DNA of 64,000 nucleotides from Cytobacillus oceanisediminis (lineage in GTDB: Bacteria; Bacillota; Bacilli; Bacillales; Cytobacillaceae), in the NCBI RefSeq assembly GCF_004366035.1, contig NZ_SOEE01000007.1:186001-250000 (forward strand), in the 5' to 3' direction. Of this stretch, positions 27,909-34,896 are shown piece after piece; position 1 is the stretch's first letter, and each line of letters starts with the position of its first letter. The translations under genes were made by a program, and so were the position numbers. A model generated the notes under the pieces. That model saw nothing but the letters and a program-made list of their open reading frames with translations, was not told where the DNA came from and made no database searches.

Positions 27909-27924
27909 TGTGAGATAGTTCACT
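27909..27924. promoter_or_regulatory. Fnr box of the radical SAM promoter
   Basis: TGTGAGATAGTTCACT is a perfect match to the Bacillus Fnr box TGTGA-N6-TCACT. The centre (27916.5) is 41.5 bp before the start predicted from the -10 element at 27946-27951, the class II activator position. Confidence 0.85.
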
Positions 27925-27945
27925 TATTTAACATGCCGATTATCC

Positions 27946-27951
27946 TATAAT
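27946..27951 (+). promoter_or_regulatory. -10 element of the radical SAM promoter
   Basis: TATAAT; predicted transcription start 27958, giving a 74-base leader. No -35 hexamer is evident, as expected for an Fnr-activated promoter. Confidence 0.7.
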
Positions 27952-28031
27952 AACGATGGAAAGACAAAATATAGGTTTGCATTGTGTTGATAAAACATCC
28001 AGGATTGAGGCTGTTTAAGGAGGCATCTCAA

Positions 28032-29156
28032 ATGGGATTTGATAGAGATTTTAATAAAGACCCTTTTATTGTGATTTGGGAATTAACAAGGGCATGCCAG
28101 CTCAAATGTCTGCATTGCCGTGCGGAAGCGCAATACAGGAGAGATCCGCGAGAGCTTTCTTTTGATGAAGGAAAGTATTTGATTGACCAAATTAAGGAAA
28201 TGAACAACCCTATGCTTGTTTTTACTGGTGGAGATCCATTAATGAGGCAGGATGTATTCGAAATTGCCGAATATGCTGTAAAAAAGGGCTTGCGTGTTTC
28301 AATGACGCCCAGTGCGACACCCAATGTAACGAAAGAAGCTATTGAAAAAGCCAAAGAGGTCGGCTTAGCTCGATGGGCTTTCAGCCTTGATGGGCCAAAT
28401 GCGGAAATCCATGATCATTTTAGAGGTACTGCCGGTTCCTTTGATTTAACGATCGAAAGGATTAAATATTTGCACGAGCTTGAAATTCCAGTCCAGATTA
28501 ATACAGTTATTTCGCGTTATAATATCGATTATCTTGAGGAAATGGCTATGGTTGCAGAAGAACTCAAATGTGTTCTTTGGAGTGTGTTCTTCCTTGTCCC
28601 AACAGGGAGAGGGCAGGAAACAGATATGATTTCTCCGGTTGAACATGAGAGGGTATTTACTTGGCTGTATAACTTAAGCAAAAAAGTTACTTTCGATATC
28701 AAGACAACAGCTGCACAGCATTACCGCCGAGTGGTCATTCAGCAAAAAATGAGGGAAGCGAAGGCTCAGAATGAGGACATCCAATATCTCGATGCACTCA
28801 CACAGCAAGGGCTAACGGGTTCTATAGATGGTTTAGGCAGGGCTCCTAAAGGAGTGAATGACGGAAATGGATTTGTTTTCATTTCACATATTGGGGATGT
28901 TTATCCCAGCGGGCTGCTTCCTGTAAAAGCAGGGAATGTAAGGGAACAGCCACTTGCTGAAATATACAGGGAATCGCCAATTTTTAAAGACCTAAGAAAT
29001 CCTGATAAATATAAAGGGAAATGCGGACTATGCGAGTTCCGTTATGTATGCGGGGGATCCAGGTCACGGGCATTTGCCATGACAGGGGATTATATGGAAA
29101 GCGAGCCGTTTTGTGTTTATATTCCAAAGGCACTTAGAAAGAAAGCGCCAAAGTAA
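28032..29156 (+). CDS. Radical SAM/SPASM protein, AhbD/NirJ-like (TIGR04053 type)
   Basis: A 374-residue radical SAM enzyme. Cys22, Cys26 and Cys29 (ACQLKCLHC) bind the SAM [4Fe-4S] cluster, and the opening FIVIWELTRAC is typical of the NirJ/AhbC/AhbD branch of haem-modifying enzymes. The C-terminal SPASM region (CGLCEFRYVCGG ... PFC) supplies ligands for extra clusters. From memory it fits TIGR04053, whose reaction is unknown. ATG at 28032 is chosen for AAGGAGG eight bases upstream; the frame is open from 27984. Its Fnr-box promoter and convergence with fnr point to expression without oxygen. Confidence 0.82.
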   Translation: MGFDRDFNKDPFIVIWELTRACQLKCLHCRAEAQYRRDPRELSFDEGKYLIDQIKEMNNPMLVFTGGDPLMRQDVFEIAEYAVKKGLRVSMTPSATPNVTKEAIEKAKEVGLARWAFSLDGPNAEIHDHFRGTAGSFDLTIERIKYLHELEIPVQINTVISRYNIDYLEEMAMVAEELKCVLWSVFFLVPTGRGQETDMISPVEHERVFTWLYNLSKKVTFDIKTTAAQHYRRVVIQQKMREAKAQNEDIQYLDALTQQGLTGSIDGLGRAPKGVNDGNGFVFISHIGDVYPSGLLPVKAGNVREQPLAEIYRESPIFKDLRNPDKYKGKCGLCEFRYVCGGSRSRAFAMTGDYMESEPFCVYIPKALRKKAPK

Positions 29157-29163
29157 AAGAAAG

Positions 29164-29188
29164 AGGAGTGCAGTTCAGCTGCACTCCT
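29164..29188. terminator. Hairpin between the radical SAM gene and fnr
   Basis: Perfect 10-bp stem AGGAGTGCAG / CTGCACTCCT with a five-base loop, reaching the fnr stop codon. The T-rich side lies on the reverse strand (CTTTCTTTTACTTT), so it mainly serves fnr. Confidence 0.65.
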
Positions 29189-29888
29189 ACTCGATGCTGC
29201 AATATACAGCAGGGCAGTTTTCACAGCCTATTTCATTTTTTAAATATTGAAGGTTTTTGACTGTGATTTTTCCATTTAGAATGGTAATGATGCCGTCTTT
29301 CTTCAGTTCACCCAGTATCCGGTTGGTGCTTTCCCTGGAGGTTCCGCAGAAATTCCCAAGCTCTTGATTCGTAAGGGGCTGATCAATGAGTATGCCCTCC
29401 TTAACCTTTATTCCATAGCTGTTAGTCATTCTGATAAGGGTTGAATACAGGGCACCTTTTTTTCCATTTAGGACGAGATCTCTAAATTTGGTCTGTGTAT
29501 TACGGAAGTGGTCGCTCATCCATTTCATAAATTCATAAGCCAATGTGCTATTTTTAAATATCTCCTTTTCCAGGACATCTTTTTTTATCACAGCCACTTC
29601 ACCAGTTTCAAGAACTAAAGCATTCAATAAATATTTAGGGTCACTGGTAAATAGGGTCAGCTCGCCAATAATTTCATTTTCTCCGCATAACCTGAAGGTG
29701 AGTTCTCTGCCATCTGCTGTTATCTTGCTGATTTGTATCTTGCCTGAAAGTATAATATAAAGCTCATCAGCATCCATGCCTTCTTGAAAAATGAAAGCCC
29801 CTTTAGGGGTTTTCATACGCCGGTCTGCGAAATGAAGAAGCTCTTTAATCTCTATGGAATGTGTCGGTTTAATGGCTGTACGAGCCAT
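29187..29888 (-). CDS. fnr: Oxygen-sensing regulator Fnr (Crp/Fnr family)
   Basis: A 233-residue regulator with an N-terminal cyclic-nucleotide-binding-like beta roll (GAFIFQEGMDADELYIILSG), a dimerisation helix and a C-terminal helix-turn-helix (LTNQELGNFCGTSRESTNRIL). The end carries Cys222, Cys225 and Cys230 (CENCPAVYC), the CX2CX4C arrangement by which Bacillus Fnr, unlike the E. coli protein, binds its oxygen-labile [4Fe-4S] cluster. It activates anaerobic respiration genes through TGTGA-N6-TCACT. Four such boxes lie in the neighbouring genes. AGGAGG precedes the ATG. No good Fnr box was found in its own upstream region. Confidence 0.92.
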   Translation of the reverse strand: MARTAIKPTHSIEIKELLHFADRRMKTPKGAFIFQEGMDADELYIILSGKIQISKITADGRELTFRLCGENEIIGELTLFTSDPKYLLNALVLETGEVAVIKKDVLEKEIFKNSTLAYEFMKWMSDHFRNTQTKFRDLVLNGKKGALYSTLIRMTNSYGIKVKEGILIDQPLTNQELGNFCGTSRESTNRILGELKKDGIITILNGKITVKNLQYLKNEIGCENCPAVYCSIE

Positions 29889-29988
29889 GTTAATCCTCCT
29901 TCATAAAACAACTGTCTTTTTTCACAATAATATCATTTGTATGGTGAAAACATTGCCGGCTTTTGTGTCTTTATTGTGGCATTTTCTA

Positions 29989-30017
29989 TTGAAATGGCGT
30001 GTCTTTGCTATTATACA
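29989..30017 (+). promoter_or_regulatory. Possible sigma-A promoter of moaA
   Basis: TTGAAA and TATACA separated by 17 bases, about 150 bases before moaA. No Fnr box is visible at the class II position. Confidence 0.35.
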
Positions 30018-30174
30018 AACAATTCCCTATTAACATTGAAACGATTGTATGTTCTAATAGTAGAAGCCCTTAATTTGAGATACTGGGTTATTTCTGTTAT
30101 TTTAAGGGAAAGGCTAAAATATACATCTGTATAGAAAGCTTATTTAAGTCACTCTTTATATGGAGTTGAACAAA

Positions 30175-31191
30175 ATGGCTAAAACAATCGTTAAAGATAA
30201 ATTGGATAGACCTTTAAGAGATCTTCGCATTTCTGTCATTGACCGCTGTAATTTCCGCTGTCAATATTGCATGCCGGCAGAAATTTTCGGGCCGGATTTT
30301 GCTTTCCTTCCAAAAAATGAACTTCTGAGCTATGAAGAAATCGAACGGCTGGCTAAAATCTTTGTAAGTCTTGGAGTGGAAAAGATCAGGTTAACAGGCG
30401 GGGAACCCCTTATGAGAAAGGACATGCCTAAACTTGTAAAAATGCTTTCAGACATTGAGGGCTTAAAAGATATAGGGCTTACCACAAATGGTGTATTGCT
30501 GCCCAAACATGCGAAAGATTTAAAGGAAGCAGGACTGGTGAGGGTTAACATCAGTCTTGACAGTCTGGATGATGAGCTGTTTGGAAAAATAAACGGACGC
30601 AATGTAGGTGTAAAACCAGTTCTTAAAGGGATCGAGGCAGCAAAAGAAGCAGGGCTGGGCGTCAAGCTTAATATGGTCGTTAAAAAAGGCCTGAATGATT
30701 CTGAAATTGTCCCGATGGCTAAGTTCTGTAAAGATAACGGCTTACAGCTCCGCTTTATTGAATACATGGATGTCGGCAGTACAAACGGCTGGAAGATGGA
30801 CGAGGTTGTTACCAAAAAAGAAATTTATAGCATTTTAAAGGAACACTATTTATTGGAACCGGTAGATCCGGATTATTTCGGAGAGGTTGCCAAGCGATAC
30901 CGTTATAAGGGCACGGATGTGGATGTTGGGTTTATTACATCTGTTTCTGAATCTTTCTGTTCAAGCTGCACACGTTCAAGATTGTCGGCAAACGGCCAAA
31001 TTTTCACATGCCTATTTAATGGAGAAGGGCATGATCTGAAGGGATTTATGAGAAAAGGCGCCACGGATGAAGAAATTACCGATCGAATTGTTAATATTTG
31101 GAAAGGTAGAAAAGACAGATATTCAGACGAACGGACTGAAGAAACCATTGCCAGCAGGAAAAAAATTGAAATGTCCTATATAGGTGGATAA
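30175..31191 (+). CDS. moaA: GTP 3',8-cyclase MoaA (molybdenum cofactor)
   Basis: A 338-residue radical SAM enzyme that begins molybdopterin synthesis by rearranging GTP with MoaC. Cys25, Cys29 and Cys32 (CNFRCQYC) hold the N-terminal cluster; the C-terminal substrate-binding cluster uses CSSCTRSRL and a third Cys in IFTCLFN. The last two residues are the essential Gly-Gly. ATG at 30175 is preferred because GGAG lies about nine bases upstream; an in-frame ATG at 30160 overlaps that site. It stands alone, separated from moeA-mobB by the RIC gene. Confidence 0.93.
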
Positions 31192-31194
31192 AGA

Positions 31195-31246
31195 AAGCAT
31201 GCCTTGCTATGTCATGAGAAATGGACATAGCGGGGCAGGCTTTTTA
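31195..31246 (+). terminator. Terminator after moaA
   Basis: A long stem (31195-31213 with 31224-31242, 18 of 19 positions pairing, two as G-T) around GCTATGTC / GACATAGC, followed by a run of five T. Confidence 0.85.
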
Positions 31247-31302
31247 TTTTGTCGTTTAACTGCAAAAAAACTGCAGCCGTTATTGGCTGCAGATCGTAAT
31301 GT

Positions 31303-31995
31303 TTATATATATCGTGGAAATAGAATGTTATTCTCAAGGTGAACATGCATAAAGGTTTGGCTTTCCAGATCTTCCAGCCGCTTATACACGAGACGGTAAG
31401 ATCCGCATGCATCTGAAGGTGGAGCATAATCTGATGTAATTTCCCTTAATTCCTTTAAAATTGAACCAGCATGATCATGCTCTTTCTCAAGCTCCCGGAT
31501 ATAGCTGATGATTTCTTGGCGATTTTCAACCTGAGGGTCCTCGAGCTTCAGGAGCATTGGAAAAACTGACTCTTCCTCTTTAGAAGTATGTTCAAGAAGC
31601 TCGTGCTTCAGCTCAAAGAATAATTGATGGACTTTTAATAGCTCCTTATGGCTTTCTCCATGTACTCTTGAAACCTTTGTTACATATGGGCTTAATAGTG
31701 ACAGTTCCTCCTCAAGAGGACGATGATATCGATTGATGACATGTTCAATAATGTCTTCTGAAGAACTGTCTGTCCAAACCTCTAAATCATCGGTTTGGTT
31801 TTCCTTCTGAATAACCTCGTTCAATTCTTTAATCAGAATTTCCATATCTGCAGACTGCTCTGAAACTGCACGCACCAGCGGAATATTTCCACCGCAGCAA
31901 AAATCGATGCGATGCCGTTTAAAAACATCACTTGTTTTTGGAAATTCGTTTACAATATCTTTTACCAGACGGTCTTCTGTAAGATGTATAGTCAT
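31303..31995 (-). CDS. RIC/ScdA/YtfE di-iron FeS-repair protein
   Basis: A 230-residue protein of the repair-of-iron-centres family. An N-terminal DUF542 domain has the hallmark DFCCGG (Cys33-Cys34). The C-terminal hemerythrin-like four-helix bundle supplies His and Glu ligands of the di-iron site, seen in INRYHRPLEEE, HGESHKELL, HELLEHTSKEEE, EKEHDHAG and HVHLENNILFPR. Homologues (ScdA, YtfE) repair iron-sulfur clusters after nitric oxide or oxidative damage. AAGGAGG precedes the ATG. A promoter with an Fnr box (32058-32073) gives it a 29-base leader, fitting a role under nitrate respiration. Confidence 0.9.
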   Translation of the reverse strand: MTIHLTEDRLVKDIVNEFPKTSDVFKRHRIDFCCGGNIPLVRAVSEQSADMEILIKELNEVIQKENQTDDLEVWTDSSSEDIIEHVINRYHRPLEEELSLLSPYVTKVSRVHGESHKELLKVHQLFFELKHELLEHTSKEEESVFPMLLKLEDPQVENRQEIISYIRELEKEHDHAGSILKELREITSDYAPPSDACGSYRLVYKRLEDLESQTFMHVHLENNILFPRYI

Positions 31996-32057
31996 TGAAT
32001 TTTCCTCCTTCTATCTTGTGAACTATCTTTAGAATAAATGAATATCCTTTTTAATTT

Positions 32058-32073
32058 GGTGACGGGCATCACA
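32058..32073 (-). promoter_or_regulatory. Fnr box of the RIC promoter
   Basis: Read on the reverse strand: TGTGATGCCCGTCACC, 9 of 10 to the Fnr consensus. The centre (32065.5) is 41.5 bp from the start (32024) predicted from a TATTCT -10 at 32036-32031. Confidence 0.75.
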
Positions 32074-32129
32074 CTTCAAGCCTTTATTTAATTTTTTTAT
32101 GAAAATCATGCACATGCAAAAAAGGAATG

Positions 32130-32145
32130 TGTGATGATTGTCATG
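32130..32145 (+). promoter_or_regulatory. Fnr box of the moeA promoter
   Basis: TGTGATGATTGTCATG, 8 of 10 to consensus. A perfect TATAAT at 32167-32172 predicts a start at 32179, placing the box centre at -41.5. Confidence 0.7.
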
Positions 32146-32219
32146 TTATAAGTTTTCATGTACGTTTATAATAATTGAAATAGAAAAGGCATTAAGAAAA
32201 GTACATAGGAGCTGATATA

Positions 32220-33485
32220 GTGCTGGAAAAAAGAACTCCCATTCCTGTTGGGGAAGCAGTAAAAAAAATCATGGCCTATCAATTAAAAGGAAGTGCAGAA
32301 TACATATCCATTAATGAAAGCAACGGCCGTTTTCTGGCAGAAGACTTAAAGGCGACCCATGATGTACCTCATTTTGATCGCTCACCATATGATGGATTTG
32401 CAGTACGTTCAGCAGATACAATGGAAGCTTCAATGGAAAATCCCGCAGTATTTGAGGTAATAGATCACATTGGCGCGGGGCATGTGACTTCCAAAAACAT
32501 TGGTCCATTCCAGGCCGTGAGAATTATGACGGGTGCGCAAATGCCTGAGGAATGTGATGCCGTGGTAATGCTTGAACTGGCAAAAGCATATGAAGAAGAC
32601 GGTAAGAATTTTATGTCCATTAAACGCTCCTATAATCCTGGAGACAATGTTTCCTTCAAGGGCGAAGATGCGAAAAAAGGAGATTCACTGGTCAAGAAGG
32701 GGACAAAAATCAACCCGGGAATTCAGGCTATTCTTGCTACCTTTGGCTATGCCGAAGTACCGGTTGCAAAGAAGCCTGTTTTCGGATTATTTGCAACCGG
32801 TACAGAGCTATTGGAAGTACACGAACCGCTGCAGCCGGGGAAAATCAGAAACAGCAATGCCCATATGATTACAGCCCAAATTGAACGGGCCGGGGCGGAA
32901 GTTATTTATTATGGAAAGCTCCCTGATGAATTTAATACATGTTTCAATGCTGTGAAAGAAGCATTGAACAGCGTGGATATGCTGATTACTACGGGCGGTG
33001 TATCTGTTGGCGATTTTGATTATCTGCCGGGCATTTATGAAAAGCTTGGTGCAGAGATCCTTTTCAATAAAGTTGCGATGCGGCCCGGCAGTGTGACTAC
33101 AGTTGCCCAGCATGAAGGGAAGCTGCTGTTTGGACTATCCGGAAATCCTTCTGCCTGCTATGTCGGGTTTGAGCTTTTTGCAAGACCGATCATCCGGAAA
33201 ATGCTGTTCTCTGAGAAACCGCATTTAAGAAAAGAAACAGCAGAACTCGTGGCAGAGTTTCCAAAAGCAAACCCATTTACACGATTTGTCCGGACAGCTG
33301 TGAATTATTCAGGAGGCAGACTTGTTGCGGCGCCAAGCGGAGTGGATAAATCAAACATTGTAATGAGTCTCGCTGGCGCGAATTCACTAATGATTCTGCC
33401 TGGCGGAACCAGAGGCTATGGCAAGGGCGACATTGTTGAGGTGCTTTTGCTTGAGGACCATGAAGGAAGCGAATGGCCATGGTAA
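32220..33485 (+). CDS. moeA: Molybdopterin molybdenumtransferase MoeA
   Basis: A 421-residue enzyme that inserts molybdate into adenylated molybdopterin. Diagnostic stretches are HFDRSPYDGFAVRS, RIMTGAQMPE, TTGGVSVGDFDYLP, VAMRPGSVTT and LSGNPSACYVGF, in the usual order of MoeA domains. The start codon is GTG with AGGAG eight bases upstream. Its 3' end overlaps mobB by 7 bases. It is read from an Fnr-box promoter divergent from the RIC gene. Confidence 0.93.
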   Translation: MLEKRTPIPVGEAVKKIMAYQLKGSAEYISINESNGRFLAEDLKATHDVPHFDRSPYDGFAVRSADTMEASMENPAVFEVIDHIGAGHVTSKNIGPFQAVRIMTGAQMPEECDAVVMLELAKAYEEDGKNFMSIKRSYNPGDNVSFKGEDAKKGDSLVKKGTKINPGIQAILATFGYAEVPVAKKPVFGLFATGTELLEVHEPLQPGKIRNSNAHMITAQIERAGAEVIYYGKLPDEFNTCFNAVKEALNSVDMLITTGGVSVGDFDYLPGIYEKLGAEILFNKVAMRPGSVTTVAQHEGKLLFGLSGNPSACYVGFELFARPIIRKMLFSEKPHLRKETAELVAEFPKANPFTRFVRTAVNYSGGRLVAAPSGVDKSNIVMSLAGANSLMILPGGTRGYGKGDIVEVLLLEDHEGSEWPW

Positions 33486-34015
33486 GTAAAGCTGTTATTT
33501 TTCAGGTATCCGGCTATCAAAACAGCGGAAAAACAACATTGGTAAGCAAAATAATTTCCGGATTAAAAAGAAATGGCCTTTCTGCCGTTACCATTAAGCA
33601 TCATGGTCATGGCGGCAAACCCGAAACCCCAGAAGGAAAGGATTCCAGCAATCATATTGAATCAGGAGCAGCTGCTTCAATTGTTGAAGGTGGAGGCAGA
33701 CTGCTTTTACAAGCTGAGAAGAAAAGCTGGAGCCTGGACGAGCAAATTAAGATTGCCATGCAGCTGCATCCTGACGTTGTGCTTATAGAAGGTCATAAAA
33801 AGGCTTCATATCCAAAAGCACTCCTGCTCAGAAGTGATGAAGATATGTACCTTATGGAGGAACTGACAAATATCTGTGCACTCTTCTCCTGGGAAGATAA
33901 ATTGATTAAGCACAAGGCTGCAGATTTGGACACTCCGTTTTTCAGCATCCATGATCCAATAGGTACTGATTGGATTATTGAGTATTTAGTGAGCGAAAGT
34001 AAGAAAAGGAAATAA
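33479..34015 (+). CDS. mobB: Molybdopterin-guanine dinucleotide biosynthesis adapter MobB
   Basis: A 178-residue P-loop GTPase with Walker A GYQNSGKTTL and the family patterns TIKHHGHGG and VVLIEGHKKASYPK. It assists MobA in attaching GMP to molybdopterin, the form used by nitrate reductases. The ATG at 33479 overlaps the moeA stop; another ATG at 33473 is equally in frame, with AAGGA 5 or 11 bases upstream respectively. mobA itself is not in the window. A terminator follows. Confidence 0.9.
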   Translation: MVSKAVIFQVSGYQNSGKTTLVSKIISGLKRNGLSAVTIKHHGHGGKPETPEGKDSSNHIESGAAASIVEGGGRLLLQAEKKSWSLDEQIKIAMQLHPDVVLIEGHKKASYPKALLLRSDEDMYLMEELTNICALFSWEDKLIKHKAADLDTPFFSIHDPIGTDWIIEYLVSESKKRK

Positions 34016-34023
34016 GATTATGC

Positions 34024-34055
34024 AAAACAGCCCATTCTATTTTAGGCTGTTTTTA
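34024..34055 (+). terminator. Terminator after mobB
   Basis: Perfect 9-bp stem AAAACAGCC / GGCTGTTTT with a 12-base loop and a T run, nine bases after the stop. Confidence 0.8.
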
Positions 34056-34100
34056 ATAATTCTCAAAAAAGTTGAACGTTTTGTGGCGATATTGTTTACC

Positions 34101-34116
34101 AGTGATAATCTTCACT
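34101..34116. promoter_or_regulatory. Fnr box of the ywiC promoter
   Basis: AGTGATAATCTTCACT, 9 of 10 to consensus. TATATT at 34138-34143 predicts a start at 34150, again putting the box centre at -41.5 with a 27-base leader. Confidence 0.8.
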
Positions 34117-34176
34117 TATTATTTACCGCGAAAATTATATATTATTGGCAGAAAGCAGCGGGGAGGTATTATATAG

Positions 34177-34896
34177 GTGAAGTTATTTATGCCAAAACAG
34201 CATGGAGCCTGGGCGATGCTGATCCTGCCATTTTGGCTCGGAGCGGCTGCATCTGATATTATTTGGTCTCATATCCCATTTTTTTTAGGATGGATTTTAT
34301 TATATCTGGCTACTTATCCGGGCCTTCTTCTATTTAAAAGAAAAAAGATAGCTTTTTATGAAAAGTGGGTTATTATTTATCTGGTTCCGGCTATTTTACT
34401 GCTATTATTTCCTATAATGGCAAGGCCTTCGATTATCATATTTGGACTTCTTATGATTCCTTTTTTTATCATTAATGCGCGCTATTCGTCCAATAACAGA
34501 GATAGGGCATTGGGTAACGATTTTAGTGCCATTTGTGCCTTTTCAACAGCAGGCCTTGCGAGCAGCTACTTGCCGTATGGGGAAATTACACCGCTGGCCT
34601 GGACAGTATTTGTAGCTTCCATTTTATTTTTTGCCGGAAGCACCTTCTATGTAAAATCAATGATCAGGGAAAAGAAAAACATTTCCTACAAATGGATTTC
34701 GTGGATCTTTCATGCTGCGGTACCGATTCTCTGGCTGCCCGCAGGTGGTTGGATTGTATCTGCAGCGTTTCTTCCCAGCCTTTTTCGGTCCATTGCATTT
34801 TATGGGAAATCATTTACACCTAAAAAAATTGGGATATATGAAATTGCGAATGCAGCCATATTCTTTTTCATGTTATTACTTGCCATTTATAATTAA
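34177..34896 (+). CDS. ywiC: YwiC-like membrane protein
   Basis: A 239-residue membrane protein with about seven hydrophobic helices. It opens with MPKQHGAWAMLILPFW, the hallmark of the YwiC family, and has ARYSSNNRDRALGNDF in a loop that recalls the substrate loops of UbiA-like enzymes. In B. subtilis ywiC lies near narK-fnr and is Fnr-dependent; its biochemical role is unknown. The start is GTG (34177) with GGAGG ten bases upstream. A perfect terminator follows. Confidence 0.87.
   Translation: MKLFMPKQHGAWAMLILPFWLGAAASDIIWSHIPFFLGWILLYLATYPGLLLFKRKKIAFYEKWVIIYLVPAILLLLFPIMARPSIIIFGLLMIPFFIINARYSSNNRDRALGNDFSAICAFSTAGLASSYLPYGEITPLAWTVFVASILFFAGSTFYVKSMIREKKNISYKWISWIFHAAVPILWLPAGGWIVSAAFLPSLFRSIAFYGKSFTPKKIGIYEIANAAIFFFMLLLAIYN

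Follow-up and report, generated by a model that had tools for sequence, protein, structure and literature searches.

Predicted class II Fnr promoters in Cytobacillus oceanisediminis form one cluster of a putative genome-wide regulon with a widely conserved radical-SAM target

In Bacillus subtilis the Fnr box lies at the class II position, and ywiC is presumably among the Fnr targets. The Fnr regulon of this species was reportedly described by Reents et al. 2006. In three other papers, the B. subtilis box is given as TGTGA-N6-TCACA (PMC8151001, table 1), the ligands of the Fnr cluster as Cys227, Cys230, Cys235 and Asp141 (PMC3520743), and the cluster is placed at the C-terminus of a regulator that controls narGHJI and whose gene is co-transcribed with narK (PMC8139620). 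Here we compare with these systems a 64,000-nucleotide stretch of Cytobacillus oceanisediminis DNA (hereafter the window; contig NZ_SOEE01000007.1, positions 186,001 to 250,000, from a genome of 5.84 Mb), in which four predicted Fnr-type promoters lie around an fnr gene. The genes run in the order SufT-like, radical S-adenosylmethionine (SAM) protein of family TIGR04053, fnr (minus strand), moaA, ric (minus strand), moeA, mobB, ywiC and argC, with argC and the wider ywiC naming assigned by eye or from Pfam. This locus resembles B. subtilis in its box and in the C-terminal cluster ligands of its regulator, and differs in that fnr, which stands with narK there (PMC8139620), is placed here among molybdenum cofactor (Moco), ric and radical-SAM genes, and in that Fnr controls narGHJI there whereas no narG was found here.

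Two further systems are close. The Fnr/ric-nir region of B. cereus shares the C-x2-C-x4-C spacing of the regulator and a ric gene in a nitric oxide (NO)- and nitrite-linked context, but a putative Fnr site there precedes the nitrite reductase gene rather than ric, and a putative Fur box precedes ric (PMC3520743, PMC8151001). The Gram-positive Rex regulon has a related palindrome at redox genes, although Rex is a repressor with the site TTGTGAA-W4-TTCACAA (PMC2883068), the core of which the four window sites do not match. Literature searches on ywiC and Fnr, TIGR04053, Cytobacillus Fnr and radical-SAM proteins in Fnr regulons returned no title on these promoters (titles only, with most subscription papers beyond reach).

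Boxes were scored against TGTGA-N6-TCACT by counting mismatches. Upstream of the radical-SAM gene, the box TGTGAGATAGTTCACT (27909..27924, plus strand, 10/10, no mismatches) is followed after 21 nt by TATAAT (27946..27951, plus strand; predicted +1 at 27958). The ric box TGTGATGCCCGTCACC (32058..32073, minus strand, 9/10, one mismatch) is paired with TATTCT (32031..32036, minus strand, read 32036..32031), the weak moeA box TGTGATGATTGTCATG (32130..32145, plus strand, 8/10, two mismatches) with TATAAT (32167..32172, plus strand), and the ywiC box AGTGATAATCTTCACT (34101..34116, plus strand, 9/10, one mismatch) with TATATT (34138..34143, plus strand). Every -10 hexamer starts 22 nt after the last box base, which gives a 21-nt spacer at all four promoters and, when each predicted hexamer is read as -12..-7, a box centre at -41.5. 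These scores, hexamers and common geometry are exactly those claimed by the first-pass annotation of the window; the scores are likewise 10, 9, 8 and 9 of 10 against TGTGA-N6-TCAC[A/T], with a weak right half-site at moeA. The annotation was also right that fnr and moaA have no comparable box in the window: no usable Fnr box for fnr was found in this genome, the 8/10 match right before the gene placing its -10 on the start codon, and a box for moaA in this genome was rejected with a best match of only 7/10.

The same annotation considered this arrangement unlikely by chance, which held for the box joined to a -10 at the exact spacing and failed for box counts or the spacer taken alone, both of which are at chance level. 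The 6.4 kb examined held four strong boxes with a good -10 at exact spacing (five strand hits), whereas none of 200 shuffles produced more than 1 and their mean was 0.05; the thresholds were chosen after the sites had been seen. Genome-wide, patterns with at most one mismatch gave seven hits at spacer 21 and 1, 0, 0 and 0 at the control spacers 20, 22, 16 and 26. With exactly two mismatches there was no genome-wide excess at spacer 21 (8 versus 10, 4, 8 and 6 at the same controls), and with at most three next to none (100 hits for the true pattern versus 88 for the reversed one).

Conservation was scored at 37 fnr loci from relatives, with the window included in the counts. The promoter (box and -10 at spacer 21) was kept upstream of the radical-SAM gene in 24/24 scored loci, of ric in 20/20, of ywiC in 20/20 and of moeA in only 12/23, so that the four sites are unequal, moeA also having the weakest box. 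Under the same rule, other upstream regions gave 1/38 (fnr), 3/24 (moaA), 3/27 (SufT), 0/23 (mobB) and 0/19 (argC). At the radical-SAM, ric and ywiC promoters, mean consensus frequency was 0.94-0.99 in the half-sites, 0.91-0.94 in the -10 and 0.58-0.64 in the spacer; near-fixed half-sites and -10 around a drifting spacer are the pattern expected of a protein that touches the two half-sites while held at a constant distance from the polymerase.

A second sample was chosen by TIGR04053 rather than by fnr. Among 299 genomes of the order searched, 92 carried the family in 116 copies, of which 113 were scored (all but the copy in the window and the contig-edge copies G191:C23 and G042:C15). A box of at least 9/10 lay within 400 bp of 91 of these 113 copies, versus 2.9% in shuffles that kept base content but not dinucleotide content, and 73 copies had the box at spacer 21 from a -10 of at least 4/6, the next best spacer reaching 26 copies. 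This full promoter was present in 72/90 genomes, 35/48 genera and 25/31 families, while 21 of the 40 that lack it are second copies sharing a genome with a copy that does have it. At least five genomes of this sample coincide with the fnr-fetched relatives (L069, L070, L071, L072 and L074). An Fnr homologue was found in 77 of the 80 TIGR04053 genomes searched for one (of 92) at E 1e-30 or better, a threshold that lets in distant family members (to about 32% identity), and in 57/80 at 1e-60 or better.

The fnr gene (29187..29888, minus strand) encodes a Bacillus-type Crp/Fnr regulator with cyclic-nucleotide-fold and Crp-type DNA-binding domains. Its C-terminal C-x2-C-x4-C motif (Cys222, Cys225, Cys230) is invariant in 38/38 sequences (37 relatives plus the window), as is Asp137, which lies roughly where B. 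subtilis Asp141 is expected, a placement made without alignment to the B. subtilis protein itself. In the recognition helix, R-E is invariant in 38/38 sequences and the next R is present in 37/38; the R-E-R of CRP reads TGTGA.

Taken with the boxes, their spacing and their conservation, these residues make class II activation by Fnr in the absence of oxygen the highly probable mode of these promoters. Under anaerobic conditions the product of the central fnr gene would carry a [4Fe-4S] cluster on its three C-terminal cysteines and the aspartate, occupy the TGTGA-N6-TCAC[T/A] box with its centre at -41.5, where it would overlap the -35 region, and recruit RNA polymerase. It would thereby switch on the radical-SAM gene, ric and ywiC and, in this clade, also moeA-mobB; oxygen would remove the cluster and silence the promoters. 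With NarG not found and a NirK-like gene present, Fnr would ready the cell for nitrite/NO chemistry, cluster repair and Moco enzymes.

The first-pass annotation had described a local regulon. The same architecture stands upstream of operons on other contigs, so the predicted regulon is genome-wide, with the four promoters as one of its clusters. With one mismatch, the arrangement precedes two COX2/COX1-like operons, a bacterial globin gene, hmp, a second Crp/Fnr gene and ldh; with two, it precedes a copper nitrite reductase (NirK)-like gene that scores under its family cut-off and pflB, which is cut by the locus edge, whilst among the remaining hits at two mismatches L011 and L012 fall within genes and are apparently chance matches, and L010 and L013 have no assignment. 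The wider Fnr regulon would also take in NO detoxification and denitrification-type genes. The ldh site matches the Rex core TGTGAA-N4-TTCACA at 12/12 positions and may belong to Rex. The second Crp/Fnr-type gene (C5:325406-326202; loci L005 and L032) has a class II box of its own, TGTGAGTTAAGTCACT, 21 nt from TAAAAT, which hints at a regulator cascade. Where fnr stands beside a narK-like gene (named by eye), the latter has a perfect box, a 21-nt spacer and a 4/6 hexamer in two of four loci (L055, L059); in L064 the box fits at a 22-nt spacer, and L060 was not readable in the stretch taken. Cytobacillus gains a defined set of predicted Fnr targets, and the predicted regulon stays intact in genomes that yielded no narG.

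Several observations weigh against activation by Fnr at these promoters. Boxes with at most two mismatches occur in the window at chance level (55 observed versus 48.9 expected). The relatives were retrieved via fnr, so that linkage to fnr is given by construction, and the alignment behind the consensus frequencies was anchored on the best box and -10, which favours exactly those positions. Other spacers often match too, in up to 16/24 loci for the radical-SAM gene (24 nt) and 16/20 for ywiC (23 nt), although 21 is the sole spacing found at every locus of these two genes. At moeA, a weak site is combined with an unusually conserved spacer (0.76, from 15 rows of which three, L056, L057 and L079, are non-orthologous sites), and something else may act there. 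Finally, two of the three TIGR04053 genomes without an Fnr homologue (G082, G218) keep a 9/10 box and a 4/6 hexamer at spacer 21, from which it follows that another regulator can use such sites.

The annotation's class II Fnr mode is upheld by the conserved half-sites and -10, the spacing fixed across the order at the radical-SAM gene, and the cysteine ligands. This genome has ten Crp-type DNA-binding domain matches above the family cut-off, and R-E-R was present in three of the six Crp-type proteins read: Fnr and the paralogues C1:182468, whose distance to a COX-like operon is about 20 kb, and C5:325406. Assignment to Fnr alone is unproven because these two paralogues share its recognition residues, and it is conceivable, if rather unlikely, that one of them mainly or also reads the boxes, with NO as a possible signal. 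The promoter of the same type at the C5 gene and the two genomes that keep a box although no Fnr homologue reached E 1e-30 would fit such a reader, as would the target genes ric, hmp and nirK, which from general knowledge are NO-related. Against it, genome G016 lacks close relatives of both paralogues (best E 5.8e-22 for C1 and 1.7e-20 for C5) and still keeps the ric and ywiC boxes; of the two Crp/Fnr proteins found there, only Fnr has the full R-E-R, the other lacking the last arginine, a pattern that favours Fnr as the reader of the boxes, short of proof. Likewise, 6/24 genomes (G011, G014, G016, G017, G022 and G023) have no close relative of C5 (E 1e-60 or better) and yet retain the linked-gene sites, whereas close C1 relatives occur in 22/24, all but G016 and G023, so that the C1 paralogue is tested by those two genomes alone.

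Chance matches in AT-rich intergenic DNA are a very improbable source of the four promoters. Such an origin would agree with the shuffle-like frequency of boxes with up to two mismatches and with the ordinary standing of the 21-nt spacer: for the 92 boxes of at least 8/10 in the window, this spacer leads to a -10 scoring 4/6 or better in 10 cases (other spacers: 1 to 13) and 5/6 or better in four (other spacers: 0 to 4). It is contradicted by the conservation in relatives, by the radical-SAM promoter across the order and by the joint shuffles; for the radical-SAM gene, ric and ywiC it is already untenable, and it is still thinkable for moeA alone. Rex operators, whose site contains TGTGAA-N4-TTCACA, were rejected at the four window sites and are the least credible reading of all, since, although the same pattern retrieved the perfect core at ldh, these four match 8 to 10 of 12 core positions, none with A at position 6, and a repressor such as Rex needs no fixed distance to the -10.

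Activation by Fnr describes a known kind of anaerobic switch with new predicted members, of which the most widely conserved is the uncharacterised radical-SAM gene (28032..29156, plus strand; 374 amino acids, radical SAM/SPASM protein TIGR04053, NCBIfam 530 bits against a cut-off of 395). AhbD and NirJ-type proteins are the next best families for the window's protein, and a tetrapyrrole or other cofactor step for the enzyme is a guess from these matches. No match to TIGR04053 at E 1e-120 came from B. subtilis, which was among 14 control genomes, and the tie between Fnr and TIGR04053 may have been overlooked so far because this model species gave none. We lean slightly towards a combined reading in which TIGR04053 belongs to the core of the Fnr regulon throughout the order, probably carrying out an oxygen-sensitive cofactor or tetrapyrrole step for anaerobic nitrogen-oxide respiration, and in which moeA-mobB stays under Fnr in the firmus/oceanisediminis clade though narG was not found. 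Predicted anaerobic control in so many of the sampled genera indicates where to seek the function of this unstudied family. In 6/7 second TIGR04053 copies of one genus (L154, L159, L160, L165, L166, L167 and L169), the best site is TGTAACATTC[A/C]TTACA, followed after 21 nt by TATAAT, and may be the operator of a different Crp-family member; the exception, L154, shows a weak related site and nothing more.

The remaining targets were identified as ric/scdA, an iron-sulfur cluster repair di-iron protein (31303..31995, minus strand; TIGR03652, 252 bits, cut-off 204.7), a moeA-like molybdopterin molybdotransferase gene with a GTG start (32220..33485, plus strand; MoeA_N, MoCF_biosynth and MoeA_C domains), mobB (33473..34015, plus strand; TIGR00176, 95.5 bits, cut-off 76.2) and a ywiC-like membrane protein gene (34177..34896, plus strand; PF14256, 131.5 bits). 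Because mobB overlaps the end of moeA, the two are probably on one transcript. The centres of the divergent ric and moeA boxes (32058-32145) are 72 bp apart, and both promoters might influence each other.

The ric-moeA alignment covered 16/18 linked regions, two of slightly more than 500 bp being excluded, and a separate rule-based count gave 14 moeA sites at spacer 21, including two loci running through the ric palindrome. Amongst the variants, a one-base deletion shortens the spacer of L051 to 20 nt, L062 combines a 9/10 box with a spacer of 22 nt, and the Neobacillus loci no longer have the right half-site. A second regulator at moeA, suggested by the spacer conservation, was set aside, no known operator being recognised by eye. 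The nitrate reductase NarG was also rejected as an explanation of the moeA box: narG turned up neither in this genome, nor in the 10 genomes G000-G008 and G010, nor in any of the 9 genomes searched for it that have a 21-nt moeA box (this one included). Six tested relatives have moeA-ric linkage without the 21-nt arrangement, and five of them have narG, the sixth, in which it was not found, being L051; this comparison is one clade contrast rather than a set of independent cases, with 3/12 box-bearing genomes (L045, L047, L066) outside the test. Of five other molybdoenzyme genes, the three examined (loci L080-L083) showed no upstream Fnr box with a -10; L083 has a 9/10 box without a -10 at an open reading frame closest to NasC but under the cut-off.

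The proteins that the fnr region has in common with C. oceanisediminis 2691 (L044) show 88-99% identity, and those in common with C. firmus NBRC 15306 (L046) 75-95%. Records titled Paenibacillus (L045), Sporosarcina globispora (L049) and Pseudomonas (L050) have an fnr 88-94% identical to that of the window, and their labels look wrong or outdated. Four spacer-20 hits of the pattern in this genome (C33:12754, C4:17502, C9:13641 and C32:11719) have a repeated TTAAACTAAAGGGTGCTT-like tail in common and probably represent a repeat or the end of a mobile element, mimicking an Fnr box.

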